From Haloarcula salinisoli (GTDB lineage Archaea > Halobacteriota > Halobacteria > Halobacteriales > Haloarculaceae), in contig NZ_RKLQ01000001.1 of NCBI RefSeq assembly GCF_019599405.1, forward strand, positions 558,001 through 622,000: a stretch of 64,000 bases of DNA, given 5' to 3'. Position 1 is the first letter of the stretch. Each line of letters begins with the position of its first letter. Made by a program: the position numbers and the translations under genes. Positions 11,325-41,903 of this stretch are shown here, in pieces. Below the pieces are notes generated by a model. That model saw only the letters and a list, made by a program, of their open reading frames with translations, made no database searches and was not told the origin of the DNA.

Positions 11325-11755
11325 CAGCCAGAAAGCCCCCGCGCTCTGGACTCCCGCGACTCGCTGCGCGTTTCCTTCGTGGTTCGAGAGAGCAAAGCTC
11401 TCTCGTCATCACGAAAGGCGCGTTGCGCCTTTCGAACGACTTCGCTCAGTCCAGTGCTTGCTACGTCGGGGTTCGTCCAGAGCGCGGCCCCTTTCAGTCC
11501 CTGGAGACGCTTCGCGCCTCCCGACCCTCGCGGAGCCTACGGCTCCGCTCAGTCCCGTCCGTATCCGGTTGGCCAACCACGTGGGTGGGACTGAAAGGGG
11601 CGGCTGCGTGGCGGCTCCGCCGCCACGACTAACGAGGTCGGCTTTGCCGACCTCGCTTGCTACACGAAGGCGGGCGACGTAAGGACCGCAGGGAGCGAAG
11701 CGAGCGAGGACCGCAACGAGCCCCCCGAGTGTAGCAGGTCGGGGCTTTCTGGCTG
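11325..11755. repeat. Palindromic modular element, copy A (double unit, 431 bp)
   Basis: Bounded by perfect 15-bp inverted repeats CAGCCAGAAAGCCCC (11325-11339) and its complement (11741-11755). Inside are two head-to-head half-units. Left stem CCGCGCTCTGGA (11339-11350) pairs with TCCAGAGCGCGG (11476-11487); right stem TGCTACAC (11658-11665) pairs with GTGTAGCA (11729-11736); inner boxes GCCCCTTTCAGTCCC (11487-11501) and complement (11587-11601) pair with each other. Extra hairpins include CGAGGTCGGC / GCCGACCTCG. No credible ORF. It occupies the divergent gap between the exchanger and aroE. Confidence 0.85.
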
Positions 11756-19887: not shown

Positions 19888-20148
19888 CAGCCAGAAAGCC
19901 CCCGCGTTCTCAGCTCCCGCGACTCGCTGCGCGCCTCGCCGCGCTCGGTGCTTGCTTCGTCGGGGTTCGCTGAGAACGCGGCCCCTTTCAGTCCCACCCA
20001 TGCCAGTTGGTCAAACAGCGCTGGGCGGGACTGAAAGGGGCGGCAGGCTACACGAAGGCGGGCGACACAAGCACCGCAGGAACGAACATATGAGTGACGA
20101 GGAGCGCAGCGAGCTCCCCGAGTGTAGCCTGCCGGGGCTTTCTGGCAG
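19888..20148. repeat. Palindromic modular element, copy B (double unit, 261 bp)
   Basis: The most compact full copy. Terminal box CAGCCAGAAAGCCCC at 19888-19902; the far end (20134-20148) has one mismatch. Left stem CCGCGTTCTCAGC (19902-19914) pairs with GCTGAGAACGCGG (19969-19981). Right stem GGCAGGCTACAC (20042-20053) pairs with GTGTAGCCTGCC (20122-20133). Inner boxes at 19981-19995 and 20027-20041 pair with each other around a 31-nt loop containing GTTGGTCAAAC. No credible ORF. It fills most of the 19808-20200 gap. Confidence 0.88.
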
Positions 20149-20200
20149 TTTGCTATCGAGTTTTCTTCCCAAGCAAGACTAGGGACCGCACCGCGTGTAG

Positions 20201-21271
20201 TCAGTCGTCGTCCGCGGCGGCTTCTGCCTCCTCGTCGACCGAGCGGGGCCCGGCGGCGTGGCCGTCGTGCTGGAGCGCCGTCGCAAAGAGCTCCGGCGAG
20301 ACGGCGGGTACGTCGACGTCCTCGACCGCCCCCTCGGCCTCGATATCCTCCAGCGACCGCGGGTACTTCCGGAGGTCTTTGTGGATGGCGATGCCGGCGT
20401 CGGCGCCCTCGCCCATCGCGACGGGAATCTGGTTGTGCCCCGGGGTCAGGTCGCCGACGGCGTAGACGCCCGGAACGGACGTTTCGCCGTGGTCGTCGAC
20501 GTCGACGGTGCCGTCGTCGTTACGTTCGACGCCGAGGTCGTCGGCGATTTCGGCGTGGTAGTCCGAGCCCAGCATCGGGAACCCGCCCTTGTACTCCCGG
20601 ACCGACCCGTCCTCGAACTCGTAGGCTTCCAGCCAGCCGTTCTCGTCGGTACGCTTGCCCGACAGCTCGGTGTCGACGACCTCGACCGGGTGGTTGTCGA
20701 GCAGTGTCTGGGTCTCCTCGCTCCACTCGGGCTCCTCGCCACGGGTCAGGATGTCCACGTCGTCGGTGTAGTTCAGCATTATCATCGCGACGTGGGCCGC
20801 GGCCTCGCCGGTCCCCATCACGAAGACGGGCTCGCCCACGAACATGAACGCGTCACAGTGGAGACACCAGTGGAGCCCCTTCCCGGTCCGTGGCAGTGGC
20901 GGGTCCGGCCGCTCGTCGGCAAAGCCCGTCGCCAGCACGACGCGTTTCACCGTGAGGTCGCCGTCGTCTGTCGCCACGCCGAAGCCGTCGTCGTCCTCTA
21001 GCGGTTCGACCGACTCCACGAATCCGCGCCGGTAGGTTCCGCCGTAGTCCTCGACCTGTTCGCGGGCGGTCTGCAGGAACTCGTTGCCGCTCACGTCCTC
21101 GGTGACGCCGATGACGTTGTGCGTGTCGGTCATCATCGCCGCACGGCCGCCGCCGCGGTTGACCACGACGGTATCCATGCCGAGTCGGGTCGTGTACAGT
21201 GCGCTCGTCAATCCGGCGGGGCCCCCGCCGACGACTGCGACGTCGTAGTCGAACTGCTCGTCGGTGTACAT
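20201..21271 (-). CDS. Thioredoxin reductase-like FAD/NAD(P) oxidoreductase
   Basis: A 356-aa flavoprotein of the TrxR family. FAD motif VVGGGPAGLTSALYTTRLG at the N-terminus; redox-active dithiol in HWCLHCDAF (CxxC) near residue 140; second nucleotide motif VMGTGEAAAHVAM; FAD-tail motif GVYAVGDLTPGHNQI near 285. A C-terminal ~50-residue acidic extension is unusual. It could reduce thioredoxin or a small redoxin. The ATG at 21271 is supported by a TATA-like gtttttatc about 25 nt upstream. Confidence 0.88.
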   Translation of the reverse strand: MYTDEQFDYDVAVVGGGPAGLTSALYTTRLGMDTVVVNRGGGRAAMMTDTHNVIGVTEDVSGNEFLQTAREQVEDYGGTYRRGFVESVEPLEDDDGFGVATDDGDLTVKRVVLATGFADERPDPPLPRTGKGLHWCLHCDAFMFVGEPVFVMGTGEAAAHVAMIMLNYTDDVDILTRGEEPEWSEETQTLLDNHPVEVVDTELSGKRTDENGWLEAYEFEDGSVREYKGGFPMLGSDYHAEIADDLGVERNDDGTVDVDDHGETSVPGVYAVGDLTPGHNQIPVAMGEGADAGIAIHKDLRKYPRSLEDIEAEGAVEDVDVPAVSPELFATALQHDGHAAGPRSVDEEAEAAADDD

Positions 21272-21430
21272 TGGAGGTTCGTAGGGGCTCGACCGATAAA
21301 AACGGCCGACATCCACGCAGCAGGGGCACACAACCGGACCGGTCCTTTCCGCCACCGTTTAAGTCTCCACGTCGACACGTCCCGGTATGACTCGACGCCG
21401 TGGTCGGTTCTGGCGCTCTCGGAGGTACCG

Positions 21431-22750
21431 ATGGTAGATATCGCGTTCGCGCTCGGGCGACTCCTCATCGCCTTCGTTCTGGTCGTGTTGAACGGTTTCT
21501 TCGTCGCGACGGAGTTCGCCTTCGTCCGGGTGCGCTCGACCTCCGTCGAGCAGCTGGCCGAGGAGGGGAAAGCCGGCGCCGAGACGCTGCAGGACGTGAT
21601 GGCCAACCTCGACGACTATTTGGCGGTCACTCAGCTGGGCATCACGCTGGCCTCACTGGGGCTCGGGTGGGCCGGCGAGCCCGCCGTCGCCTCGCTCATC
21701 GAGCCGGTGCTGGGTCCGCTCCTGCCGGCGAATCTGCTCCATCTGGTCGCCTTTGCCATCGGCTTCAGCTTCATCACGTTCCTGCACGTGGTCTTCGGGG
21801 AACTCGCGCCCAAGACCATCGCCATCGCCGAGGCCGAACGGCTCTCCCTGCTGGTCGCGCCGCCGATGAAGCTGTTCTACTACATGTTCTACCCCGGGCT
21901 GGTCGTGTTCAACGGGACCGCCAACGCCTTCACCCGACTCATCGGTATCCCGCCGGCCTCGGAGACCGAGGAGACTCTCGAAGAGCGCGAGATTCGACGC
22001 GTGCTTGCCCGCTCCAGCGAGCAGGGCAACGTCGACACCGCCGAGGTCGAGATGATAGAGCGCGTCTTCGACCTCGACGACACCACCGTCCGGACCGTGA
22101 TGGTTCCGCGACCCGACGTCGTCTCCATCCCGGCCGACGCCTCGCTTGCTGAGATTCGCAAGACGGCACTCGACGCCGGCCACACTCGCTACCCGGTCGT
22201 CGGTACTGACGACCAGGACGAGGTCGTCGGCTTCATCGACGTCAAGGACGTGTTGCGCGCTATCGAGGACGACGGGGAGACCACGGCGGCGGAACTGTCG
22301 CGCAGTCTCCTCATGGTCCCGGAGACGGCGACCGCCGACGACATCCTGTTGCAGTTCCGTGAGGAACACCAGCAGATGGCGGCGGTCATCGACGAGTGGG
22401 GAGCTTTCGAGGGCATCGTTACCATCGAGGACGTCGTCGAGGCCGTCGTCGGCGACCTGCGGGACGGCTTCGACGTCGACGAGCGCGAACACTCGGTCCG
22501 AGAGCTGGGCGGCGGGCGGTACGACATCGACGGGAGCGTCCCGCTGACACTCGTCAACGAGGAGCTGGGCGCGACCTTCGAGAGCGACGGCGTCGAGACA
22601 ATCGGCGGGCTGGTGCTCGCGCGGCTGGGCGAGATACCGTCGCCGGGCGACGGCGTCGAGGCCGACGGCTACCGCATCGAGGTCGCGACCGTCGACGGCG
22701 CCCGCATCTCGACCGTGACGGTCGAGCCCCTCGACGCGGCTGCTGAGTAA
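21431..22750 (+). CDS. DUF21/CBS-domain membrane protein (CorC/HlyC family)
   Basis: A 439-aa member of the CNNM/CorB-like ion-transport family. N-terminal DUF21 domain with about 4 helices (FALGRLLIAFVLVVLNGFF; ATEFAFVRVRS; FGELAPKTIAI), two CBS domains around residues 205-330 (VMVPRPDVVSIP; TRYPVV; QMAAVIDEWGAFEGIVTIED), and a C-terminal CorC_HlyC domain. Role in Mg2+ or Na+/Mg2+ efflux is known for the family; the actual ion is an inference. Confidence 0.9.
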   Translation: MVDIAFALGRLLIAFVLVVLNGFFVATEFAFVRVRSTSVEQLAEEGKAGAETLQDVMANLDDYLAVTQLGITLASLGLGWAGEPAVASLIEPVLGPLLPANLLHLVAFAIGFSFITFLHVVFGELAPKTIAIAEAERLSLLVAPPMKLFYYMFYPGLVVFNGTANAFTRLIGIPPASETEETLEEREIRRVLARSSEQGNVDTAEVEMIERVFDLDDTTVRTVMVPRPDVVSIPADASLAEIRKTALDAGHTRYPVVGTDDQDEVVGFIDVKDVLRAIEDDGETTAAELSRSLLMVPETATADDILLQFREEHQQMAAVIDEWGAFEGIVTIEDVVEAVVGDLRDGFDVDEREHSVRELGGGRYDIDGSVPLTLVNEELGATFESDGVETIGGLVLARLGEIPSPGDGVEADGYRIEVATVDGARISTVTVEPLDAAAE

Positions 22751-22815
22751 TCGCGGTTTCGGCGGTATCGGTGGAAAAACCAACCTTCTTGCCCCCGCTG
22801 GGTTATGAGCCGGTA

Positions 22816-24624
22816 ATGGCTGACTCACACGGTCCGTCGGGGTCGGCGGGCGACGGTGCTGGGGACGAGGAGGTCCCCGTCTCGGGCGAGGTCGTTCCGG
22901 ACAAGTTCTCCTCCGACGAGGTCTTCCAGCGTATCGTCGCCGACGCCGACCACGAGATAACCTCCGGCGCCCGCGAGCTGTTCTTCAGCGCGCTGGCCGG
23001 CGGGTTCGCGATTACTATCACGCTGCTCGTCTACGCCTCGATGGTACCCAAGACCGAGAGCAAGATCCTCGCGGCGATGCTCTACCCCATCGGCTTCATC
23101 TATATCATCATCGGTGGGTACCAGCTCTACACCGAGAACACGCTTCCGCCGGTCGCGCTCACCCTGGAGCGGCTGGCGTCGATTCCGGCGCTGTTGCGCC
23201 ACTGGGGTATCGTCGCGGCGGGGAACTTCGCCGGTGGTGCCATCGGTGCTATCGTACTCGCCTACGGCGGTGTGTTCAGCCCCGAGGCGGCGACCGTCGC
23301 GGCAGACCTGGCCACCAAGGGGGTCTACGAGACGTCCAATCTAGAACTGTTCTTCAAGGGGGCGTTCGCTGGGCTCATCGTCGCCGGCGTCGTCTGGATG
23401 AACTTCGCGGCCCGCGACACCATCACGCGGCTGGCGGTCGTCTATCTGGCCTTCCTCTGTATCCCGCTCGCGAACCTCTTCCACGTGGTCGTCTCCTTCA
23501 CCGAAGCGGTGTATCTGATGCTCGTCGGTGATCTGGGGTTCCTGCTGGCGATGACCGACTTCGTCATCCCCGTCATGCTTGGCAACACCGTCGGCGGCGT
23601 CGTGCTGGTCACCATCGTCAACTACTACCAGACGACGGAGGACCGACTCGAGACGGCCCGGTTCGAACACGTCCGGCGACTCAGCGTCCGCGAGTGGCTG
23701 CTGGGGAACCTCGCGGGCCGGTCGTACGTCCCGCTCGTCGACACCGTCGAGGACTTCGTCAGAGACCCCGAGTCCTACCGCGTGCTCGTCCCCATCGCGA
23801 ACCCCCGCACCGAGTCCGGGCTGGTCGAACTGGCCTGTACCCTCGCAAGCACCAGAAAGAAAGGGACGGTCCACGTCGCCCACGTCGTTCAGGCGCCAAA
23901 ACAGAGCAAAGCGGCCGACGACCGCCGGCAGCGAGAGCGCATCGTCGAGGAGTCCTCGACCCAACTGGAAGATATCGAGCGCATCGGCGAGCGCTACGAC
24001 GTCACTTTCGAGACCTCGACCATCGTCTCGCACCGCTCGTTCGAGGAGGTCTTCGACCGGGCGAACCGCACCCGTCCCGACCTCGTCCTGATGAACTGGG
24101 AGAAACACGGTCTGTGGGCCAGTGCCCGCGCGGAGCGTCCGCTGGCCGAACTCACCAACCAGCTCCCCGCGGACTTCCTCGTGGTCAAGGACCGCGGCGG
24201 CGACTGTTCACGGATGCTCGTTCCGACCGCGGGCGGGCCGGCCTCGGACCTGAGCGCCGAGATTGCCCGGGGGCTGCGCGAGGCCACCGGTGGGGAGATA
24301 ACACTCCTGCACGTCGCCGACCCCGGCCAGCAGGAAGCGGGCGAGGCGTTCCTCAGCGAGTGGGCCGAGGGCCACGACCTCGCCGACGCGACCCGTATCG
24401 TCGACGATTCGGGCGATATCGAGGGGGTCATCGAGCGCGAAGCCGCCGACCACACGATGGTGATGCTCGGCGCGACCGAGCAGGGTATCCTCGCCCGGCT
24501 TGTCACCGACTCGCTCCATCTGAACGTCGTCGACGACGTTGACAGCACCGTCTTGCTCACCGAACGGGAGACCGACCGGTCGTTCACAGAGCGGCTGTTC
24601 GGTGCCGGGCGGCGGAATAAGTGA
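22816..24624 (+). CDS. FNT-family channel fused to two universal stress protein domains
   Basis: A 602-aa fusion. Residues ~45-290 are a formate/nitrite-transporter-like channel with six helices (FFSALAGGFAITITLLVYAS; FKGAFAGLIVAGVVWM; VMLGNTVGGVVLVTIVNYYQ). Residues ~325-440 and ~450-590 are two Usp-like alpha/beta domains (YRVLVPIANPRTESGLVELA; RMLVPTAGGPASDLSAEI). The first Usp domain lacks an obvious ATP loop; the second ends MLGATEQGILARLVTDSLH. Transport of a small anion controlled by the cytosolic Usp domains is inference. Convergent with the FNR-like gene across element C. Confidence 0.85.
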   Translation: MADSHGPSGSAGDGAGDEEVPVSGEVVPDKFSSDEVFQRIVADADHEITSGARELFFSALAGGFAITITLLVYASMVPKTESKILAAMLYPIGFIYIIIGGYQLYTENTLPPVALTLERLASIPALLRHWGIVAAGNFAGGAIGAIVLAYGGVFSPEAATVAADLATKGVYETSNLELFFKGAFAGLIVAGVVWMNFAARDTITRLAVVYLAFLCIPLANLFHVVVSFTEAVYLMLVGDLGFLLAMTDFVIPVMLGNTVGGVVLVTIVNYYQTTEDRLETARFEHVRRLSVREWLLGNLAGRSYVPLVDTVEDFVRDPESYRVLVPIANPRTESGLVELACTLASTRKKGTVHVAHVVQAPKQSKAADDRRQRERIVEESSTQLEDIERIGERYDVTFETSTIVSHRSFEEVFDRANRTRPDLVLMNWEKHGLWASARAERPLAELTNQLPADFLVVKDRGGDCSRMLVPTAGGPASDLSAEIARGLREATGGEITLLHVADPGQQEAGEAFLSEWAEGHDLADATRIVDDSGDIEGVIEREAADHTMVMLGATEQGILARLVTDSLHLNVVDDVDSTVLLTERETDRSFTERLFGAGRRNK

Positions 24625-24670
24625 AAACTACCGTTGCTGTGGAGAGGTTTTGCCTAGCAGCGATTGCGAA

Positions 24671-24715
24671 CAGCCAGAAAGCCCCGCTAGCAGTGGACGC
24701 CAACAGCGTTGCGAA
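24671..24715. repeat. Extra terminal box in front of element C
   Basis: A second CAGCCAGAAAGCCCC (24671-24685) lies 45 nt before the one that starts element C, separated by gctagcagtggacg... sequence; gcgaa precedes both boxes. The spacer matches the outer flank of element D (gctagcagtg), so the flank plus box has been tandemly duplicated here. Confidence 0.7.
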
Positions 24716-25036
24716 CAGCCAGAAAGCCCCCGCGCTATCGGCTCGCGCGGCTCGCTGTGCTCCTCGCCTCCCTGCGGTCGGCTACGGTGCTTACTTCGCC
24801 GTGCTTCGGCGATAGCGCGGCCCCTTTCAGTCCCACCCAGCGCTGTTTGACCAACCGGCTACGGGCGGGACTGAAAGGGGCGTTCGCGGGCGGCAAAGCC
24901 GCCCGCGAGCTCGGGAGACCTCCGGTCTCCCGGTGGCTGGCTGAACGAAGGCGGACGATGCAAGCACCACAGCGAGTGCAACGAGCGAGGAGCGCAGCGA
25001 GTCCCCCAAGTTCAGCCCGCCGGGGCTTTCTGGCTG
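24716..25036. repeat. Palindromic modular element, copy C (double unit, 321 bp)
   Basis: Terminal boxes at 24716-24730 and 25022-25036 (perfect complement). Left stem CCGCGCTATCG (24730-24740) pairs with CGATAGCGCGG (24810-24820). Right stem GGCTGAAC (24939-24946) pairs with GTTCAGCC (25010-25017). Inner boxes 24820-24834 and 24867-24881. The right half carries two extra hairpins, CGCGGGCGGC/GCCGCCCGCG and GGGAGACC/GGTCTCCC. The central loop is the reverse complement of that in copy B. The element lies between convergent genes; no credible ORF. Confidence 0.88.
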
Positions 25037-37099: not shown

Positions 37100-37273
37100 C
37101 AGCCAGAAAGCCCCGACTGGCTCCGGTCGGGGGGCTCGTTGCGCGCTTCCTTCGCTCACTTCGTTCGCTCAGTTCAGTGCTTACGTCGCCCGCCTTCCCG
37201 GAGCCCGTCACCGGGAGACCGGAGGTCTCCCGAGCTCGCGGGCGGCCATGCCGCTCGCGAACGCCCCTTTCTG
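37100..37273. repeat. Palindromic modular element, copy D (single half-unit, about 174 bp)
   Basis: Terminal box CAGCCAGAAAGCCCC (37100-37114), stem GGCTCCGG (37119-37126) pairing with CCGGAGCC (37198-37205), conserved core with GGCTCGTTGCGCGC and GTGCTTACGTCGCCCGCC, then hairpins GGGAGACC/GGTCTCCC and a CGCGGGCGGC module that match the right half of copy C in reverse, ending in GCCCCTTTCTG (37263-37273). The second half-unit is absent. It lies between two co-oriented genes. The rest of the gap to 37388 shows nothing else. Confidence 0.8.
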
Positions 37274-37388
37274 CCTCTTTGCGGTCACATACTCGGGGCC
37301 CGTGCGGTTCGCGACTCCTATTACTCCCACCGCCGTTGCTAGCGCGAGTGCGGCAACTTTTTCTCCGGGCGGCGGGGACTCTCGCCCA

Positions 37389-41726: not shown

Positions 41727-41903
41727 CAGTCAGAAAGCCCCGGCCCGCTACACTCCCGCGGCTCGTTGCGCGCTTCCTTCGCTCACTCCGTTCGCTCTGT
41801 CCAGTGCTTACTTCGCCGGGGTTCGTGTAGCAAGCGAGGTCGGCTCCGCCGACCTCGTTAAACGTGGCGGCTACGCCGCCACGCAGCCGCCCCTTTCTGG
41901 CTG
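41727..41903. repeat. Palindromic modular element, copy E (single half-unit, 177 bp)
   Basis: Terminal box CAGTCAGAAAGCCCC (41727-41741, one mismatch), stem GCTACAC (41747-41753) pairing with GTGTAGC (41825-41831), conserved core GGCTCGTTGCGCGC ... GTGCTTACTTCGCCGGGGTT, then hairpins GAGGTCGGC/GCCGACCTC and a GTGGCGGC module identical in plan to the right half of copy A in reverse, ending GCCCCTTTCTGGCTG (41889-41903). A second CTTTCTGGCTG follows at 41933-41943. It lies in the bc operon, between the cytochrome b C-terminal gene and the DUF7315-like gene. Confidence 0.82.

Follow-up and report, generated by a model that had tools for sequence, protein, structure and literature searches.

Segments that turn between inverted repeats are known from invertons and from the terminal flip/flop of parvoviruses, in which a known enzyme is involved and both forms occur in one population. 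Double-hairpin elements of mitochondrial genomes, which are organellar and much shorter than the element treated here, consist of paired hairpins with variable stems and insert into one another by a mechanism that is not known. Elements of the latter type were named in two publications (PMC7218506, PMC4478555). Within the haloarchaea, palindrome-associated transposable elements (PATEs) carry near-terminal palindromes related to IS605 ends and possess no terminal inverted repeats (PMC3119063); they also lack a target duplication. Miniature inverted-repeat transposable elements (MITEs), in turn, have terminal inverted repeats in common with a transposon that encodes a transposase, and a target duplication is often present. 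Furthermore, template switching between the arms of inverted repeats has been documented to render the arms alike and to turn the spacer around, and every spacer inversion seen in yeast involved arms of more than 9 bp (PMC8604942). In this study, a stretch of 64,000 nucleotides from Haloarcula salinisoli (assembly GCF_019599405.1, contig NZ_RKLQ01000001.1, positions 558,001 to 622,000; hereafter the window, in which all features are given on the + strand) was analyzed for an intergenic, non-coding element of 250–430 bp composed of an outer stem, two hairpin arms and a central hairpin. Two copies within the window, B and C, are probably representatives of a nested palindrome interspersed in Halobacteria, whose loop and, independently, whole sequence were inverted in place during evolution, the flip being a by-product and not a dedicated switch.

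The central loops of both copies are enclosed by inner boxes of 15 bp, GCCCCTTTCAGTCCC and GGGACTGAAAGGGGC, located at positions 19981–19995 and 20027–20041 in copy B and at positions 24820–24834 and 24867–24881 in copy C. An initial annotation had described these boxes as perfect inverted repeats and the loops between them as nearly reverse complementary, and both statements were confirmed, as were the coordinates and sequences of the loops. Loop B (ACCCATGCCAGTTGGTCAAACAGCGCTGGGC, 19996–20026) and loop C (ACCCAGCGCTGTTTGACCAACCGGCTACGGGC, 24835–24866), comprising 31 and 32 bases, respectively, share 20 contiguous bases that are identical in inverse orientation and extend across the centre. 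Their alignment score was 21 in reversed and 10 in direct orientation, and none of 20,000 shuffled sequences reached 21, the top shuffle scoring 13. The direct score is not lower because each loop itself represents a weak, decayed palindrome. A third copy, A, had been assigned to the orientation of B. This assignment is supported by comparison of its core loop (11557–11586) with loop C (18 reversed, 1 direct), but not by direct comparison with loop B, which does not discriminate (7 direct, 6 reversed).

Loops are assembled from few recurring half types and represent degenerate palindromes. Considering all copies classified in all genomes, the AGCGCTGTTTG half was located on the side of the type I arm in 27 cases and on the side of the type II arm in five, a purely descriptive count and no test of significance, since the copies are related. 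Copy B shows the majority arrangement, with this half on the right adjoining its type I arm, whereas copy C is one of the five exceptions, with the half on the left adjoining its type II arm; its loop is therefore inverted relative to B and most other copies. One base in 32 separates loop C from that of copy L001, although the arms of the two copies are in opposite order. Moreover, a hairpin pair inserted beside the loop serves as an independent marker of the orientation of the centre. Copy A and L304 carry it on the type II side, L190 and L028 on the type I side, and these copies support inversion of the centre.

For comparison of one locus across genomes, flanking sequences were used to match the element sites, and orientation was called from alignment scores together with the author's reading of the half types. 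Comparison of this genome with Haloarcula rara (G002) yielded 13 pairs, of which eight showed the same orientation, two were clearly and one was probably inverted, and two were undecided. In the two clear cases the whole element appears to be turned, since the arm types have also changed places. Other genomes contributed five further loci in the same and four in inverted orientation, plus one judged from one flank only. In total, about 13 loci show the same orientation and six are inverted, with a few less certain cases. Comparison among related strains had been proposed in the initial annotation, and orientation proved not to be fixed at these loci, which are other than those of B and C. The further inverted loci comprise a pair of metagenome-assembled genomes (MAGs; L064/L116), L326 versus L325/L327, L166/L226 and L185/L306. 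For the MAG pair, the right flank is 98% identical and the loop is reversed at 25 of 26 positions; arm remnants suggest that the whole element was turned.

Two clean in-place inversions were identified. At a locus designated X (L323, L329), the 325-bp element of Haloarcula amylolytica (G006) is inverted relative to G011 and G018. It matches the reverse of the G011 element at 320 of 325 positions between colinear flanks that are 91% and 94% identical. The terminal base of each outer box stays with its own flank, which places the breakpoints inside the outer boxes. At the second locus, the loops of Halonotius pteroides and Halonotius roseus scored 22 in reversed and 2 in direct orientation, the former score being reached by none of 5000 shuffles. 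The right arm, by contrast, remained in direct orientation, with 79 of 86 positions identical when an inserted hairpin pair of 54 bp is set aside (0.79 in the reverse control). Both flanks are colinear (84–85%); the left arm is missing in H. pteroides. At both loci, a segment between inverted repeats hence occurs in two orientations, in each case between genomes. In-place inversion is accordingly observed between copies, recurrently, at orthologous loci and at the level of the inner as well as the outer boxes. The flip across the outer boxes is an additional level that the initial annotation had missed. Its proposal of a homologous or site-specific flip across the inner boxes holds as far as the inversion in place is concerned (Halonotius pair; copy A and L304 versus L190 and L028), whereas neither recombination nor an enzyme is singled out against template switching as the agent. 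As a separate observation, the turned element of locus X shows 98.5% identity between the species, a conservation exceeding that of its surroundings (91–94%).

Arm structure is relevant for the way in which such inversions may arise. Arms are about 88 nt long and belong to three types, told apart by the second helix. Among 45 standard-length arms of this genome and H. rara, 95.6% of the cells of the consensus structure were paired, the outer pairs of the stems mostly occurred in two to four Watson-Crick types each, and several unpaired positions were near-invariant. In this genome, the first 12 bases were distinct in 63 of 76 arms. The two ends of one arm nevertheless pair at a mean of 11.3 of 12 positions, as compared to 6.3 for ends of different arms (both genomes). 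The predicted single-strand fold of copies A and B is a cross formed by outer stem, left arm, central hairpin and right arm; for copy C, the arms are predicted to pair with one another instead, because they are partly complementary to each other.

Regarding the mechanism, loop and whole element would each turn because they are flanked by perfect or near-perfect inverted repeats of 14–15 bp. Most likely, the enclosed segment is inverted by polymerase template switching between the palindrome arms or by recombination between short inverted repeats, and template switching would also keep the arms complementary while their sequence changes. It would thus account for both the complementary yet changing arms and the inverted centres, although recombination would suffice for the inversion. 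The corresponding pattern, namely boxes of 15 bp and a loop inverted in place in Halonotius, is present at the level of sequence. The element itself may be a selfish or structurally maintained repeat, the flip then following from its palindromic form. Overall, inversion is probably due to template switching or short-homology recombination, and module exchange between copies very probably occurs in addition.

Several points weigh against interpreting B and C in this way. Their sites are empty in the nearest relatives, with no orthologous element present, and for this reason we infer the flip at B and C from paralogues. Furthermore, the turnover of arms is so rapid that a clean inversion confined to the loop was found at a single orthologous locus (Halonotius), where one copy lacks its left arm, and G006 as well as the MAGs are draft assemblies. 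Finally, the conserved structure and the near-invariant unpaired arm positions suggest a selected function that a mere by-product does not explain.

Among the alternatives, the one that survives best, although rather unlikely, assumes insertion in either direction combined with gene conversion via the shared boxes, which would swap loops and arms, so that the centres of B and C were acquired in opposite orientation and nothing inverted in place. Rapid exchange of arms argues for it: loop identity was 0.84 at orthologous versus 0.74 at non-orthologous loci (0 of 2000 permutations), while arm ends were barely more alike at orthologous loci (80 of 2000 permutations). Loops are hence inherited with the locus, arms hardly. 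Moreover, L187 and L225 share identical loops and differ in their arms, and since the boxes are nearly identical in all copies, conversion would be possible in either direction. Locus X, however, harbors the same arms and loop reversed at the same site with breakpoints in the boxes, which is poorly explained by reinsertion or conversion.

An inverton, in which a site-specific recombinase acting on inner or outer boxes toggles loop or element and thereby alters the expression of neighbouring genes, is considered improbable. The boxes are perfect inverted repeats of 14–15 bp, the inner box is unchanged across genera, as expected of recombinase sites, and orientation differs between genomes whose right flanks are 98% identical. 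On the other hand, the copies are many and scattered, no linked recombinase is known, though no systematic search for one was made, the loop, which is close to symmetric, showed no recognisable promoter, and two orientations at one locus are known from comparison of different genomes only. It is equally doubtful that the family flips across Halobacteria at two levels so often that both forms coexist in populations, with a dedicated enzyme recognising the boxes and effects on neighbouring genes. The decay of a once-symmetric palindrome, by which loop halves mutated independently and resemble the reverse through shared ancestry, fits the degenerate palindromic loops with their few half types, but it is very improbable in view of the 20 identical reversed bases spanning the centre (0 of 20,000 shuffles) and excluded at locus X, where 325 asymmetric bases are inverted.

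Returning to the nested palindrome inverted in place, its copies in the window comprise three complete elements and two one-armed relatives. The outer box pair is CAGCCAGAAAGCCCC and GGGGCTTTCTGGCTG. Copy B starts with the left outer box CAGCCAGAAAGCCCC (19888–19902), followed by the left, type II arm (CTCCCGCG...CGTCGGGG, 19903–19980), and ends with the right, type I arm (20042–20133) and a right outer box with one mismatch (GGGGCTTTCTGGCAG, 20134–20148). In copy C, the left outer box (24716–24730) and type II arm (24731–24819) precede the central hairpin, while the right, type I arm (24882–25021), enlarged by an inserted hairpin pair, and the right outer box (25022–25036) follow it. Copy A is complete from outer box to outer box (11325–11755), with inner boxes at 11487–11501 and 11587–11601 and an inserted hairpin pair that separates the loop core from the left inner box. 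Copies D (37100–37277; outer box, arm and inserted hairpins) and E (41727–41903; closed by GCCCCTTTCTGGCTG) are one-armed and lack the central hairpin.

Many arms carry inserted hairpin pairs, and copy A has one next to its loop as well. The inserted pairs of the one-armed copies D and E correspond, in reverse orientation, to those of copies C and A (inverted repeats I2 and I1). When one element is compared between two genomes (L327 versus L325), two hairpin pairs of approximately 57–60 bp found in one of them are cleanly missing from the other, and for this reason the inserted pairs look mobile on their own. Beside elements, units consisting of an outer box and 30 nt were found in tandem with a period of 45 bp, as at positions 24671–24730 of the window, where an extra outer box (24671–24685) lies 45 bp from that of copy C, and at L214, L221 and L228; in H. 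rara, up to six copies of the unit occur. Regarding the sequences outside the outer boxes, CTAG, often as GCTAGC, was found within 60 nt in 46% (this genome) and 41% (G002) of cases as compared to 1–2% in a control stretch farther out, which is mostly coding, so that part of the difference may be an intergenic or stop-codon effect. In about 24 flanks of the two genomes, a motif resembling TGTTTAGTTAG begins 28 nt outside the outer box, and G is enriched with a spacing of approximately three bases between −44 and −5, in phase with the box. The motif and the G phasing possibly represent a promoter or a conserved end of the element.

In this genome, 20 exact inner-box pairs, about 40 elements with a readable centre (mismatches allowed; further copies are possible) and 157 outer boxes at no more than one mismatch were counted. 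Scanning of named genomes revealed at least 120 loci in Haloarcula, Halonotius, Halorarius, Haloterrigena, Halomicrococcus, Halohasta, Natronococcus and others. Exact copies were present in 20 of 194 sampled Halobacteria genomes, representing 10 of 65 genera; this is a lower bound because a single mismatch hides a copy. The outer stem covaries between genera around constant GAAAGCCCC/GGGGCTTTC; examples are Halorarius, in which CACCTCGAAAGCCCC is paired with GGGGCTTTCGAGGTG, and a MAG, in which CAGCGTGAAAGCCCC is paired with GGGGCTTTCACGCTG. Haloarchaeal plasmids carry single arms and partial copies, for which the records viewed contained no repeat annotation. Viral contigs yielded no exact copy. 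Screening of the window against Rfam returned no match at gathering scores, and at a relaxed threshold only microRNA and small nucleolar RNA (snoRNA) matches far below these scores, so that no known RNA family is recognised. Likewise, no relevant paper containing the box sequences and no description of the family were found in the literature covered, which did not extend to subscription papers; the sole match to a box sequence was an unrelated paper on celery. The repeat family is thus abundant and widespread, and apparently undescribed and unnamed. A Y1 transposase was considered as mobiliser, but its presence does not track the element: this genome encodes one Y1_Tnp gene, G001 and G008 contain elements and no Y1_Tnp match, and G003 and G009 contain Y1_Tnp and no exact element. 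Statistics on gene orientation were judged unreliable in this GC-rich genome with its long antisense frames and were not used.

Inversion between short perfect inverted repeats is documented here at orthologous archaeal sites and at two nested levels. The family offers a naturally occurring setting in which archaeal template switching or short-repeat recombination could be measured, and such loci should be regarded as potentially two-state when genomes of these species are assembled or their gene expression is studied.

Like PATEs, the element is a short, non-coding, abundant and palindrome-bearing repeat of Halobacteria and a target for other small elements (PMC3119063). Unlike PATEs, it possesses outer and inner inverted repeats and a cross-shaped fold; identity with PATEs was rejected because, in most copies, the outer boxes pair as a stem of inverted repeats. 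With regard to target duplication, the empty sites in the relatives were too diverged for placing the junction. The SMR-A small mobile repeats of Haloquadratum are also short, with prominent inverted repeats and unexplained mobilisation, but they measure about 110 bp, are homogeneous in sequence and are inserted in PATEs (PMC3119063), whereas the element described here extends over 250–430 bp, is modular and differs in its arms in nearly every copy. Repetitive extragenic palindromes (REP) and bacterial interspersed mosaic elements (BIME; e.g., PMC12306157) are likewise intergenic, palindromic and multicopy, REPs being single short hairpins, whereas the nested element described here combines a central hairpin with two arms of about 88 nt. 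REP/BIME palindromes are associated with a Y1 transposase of the RAYT type. The hairpin pairs inserted in the arms resemble the double-hairpin elements of mitochondria, which are found without a larger cross-shaped host element. With invertons and the parvovirus flip/flop, the element shares a segment between inverted repeats in two orientations, here observed between genomes; a dedicated enzyme would be hypothetical. Finally, inversion of spacers by template switching combines perfect arms, an inverted spacer and arm homogenisation, as observed here; the documented cases concern yeast genes and spacers of a few bases (PMC8604942), whereas loops of 31–32 bp and an element of 325 bp are inverted in the Halobacteria.

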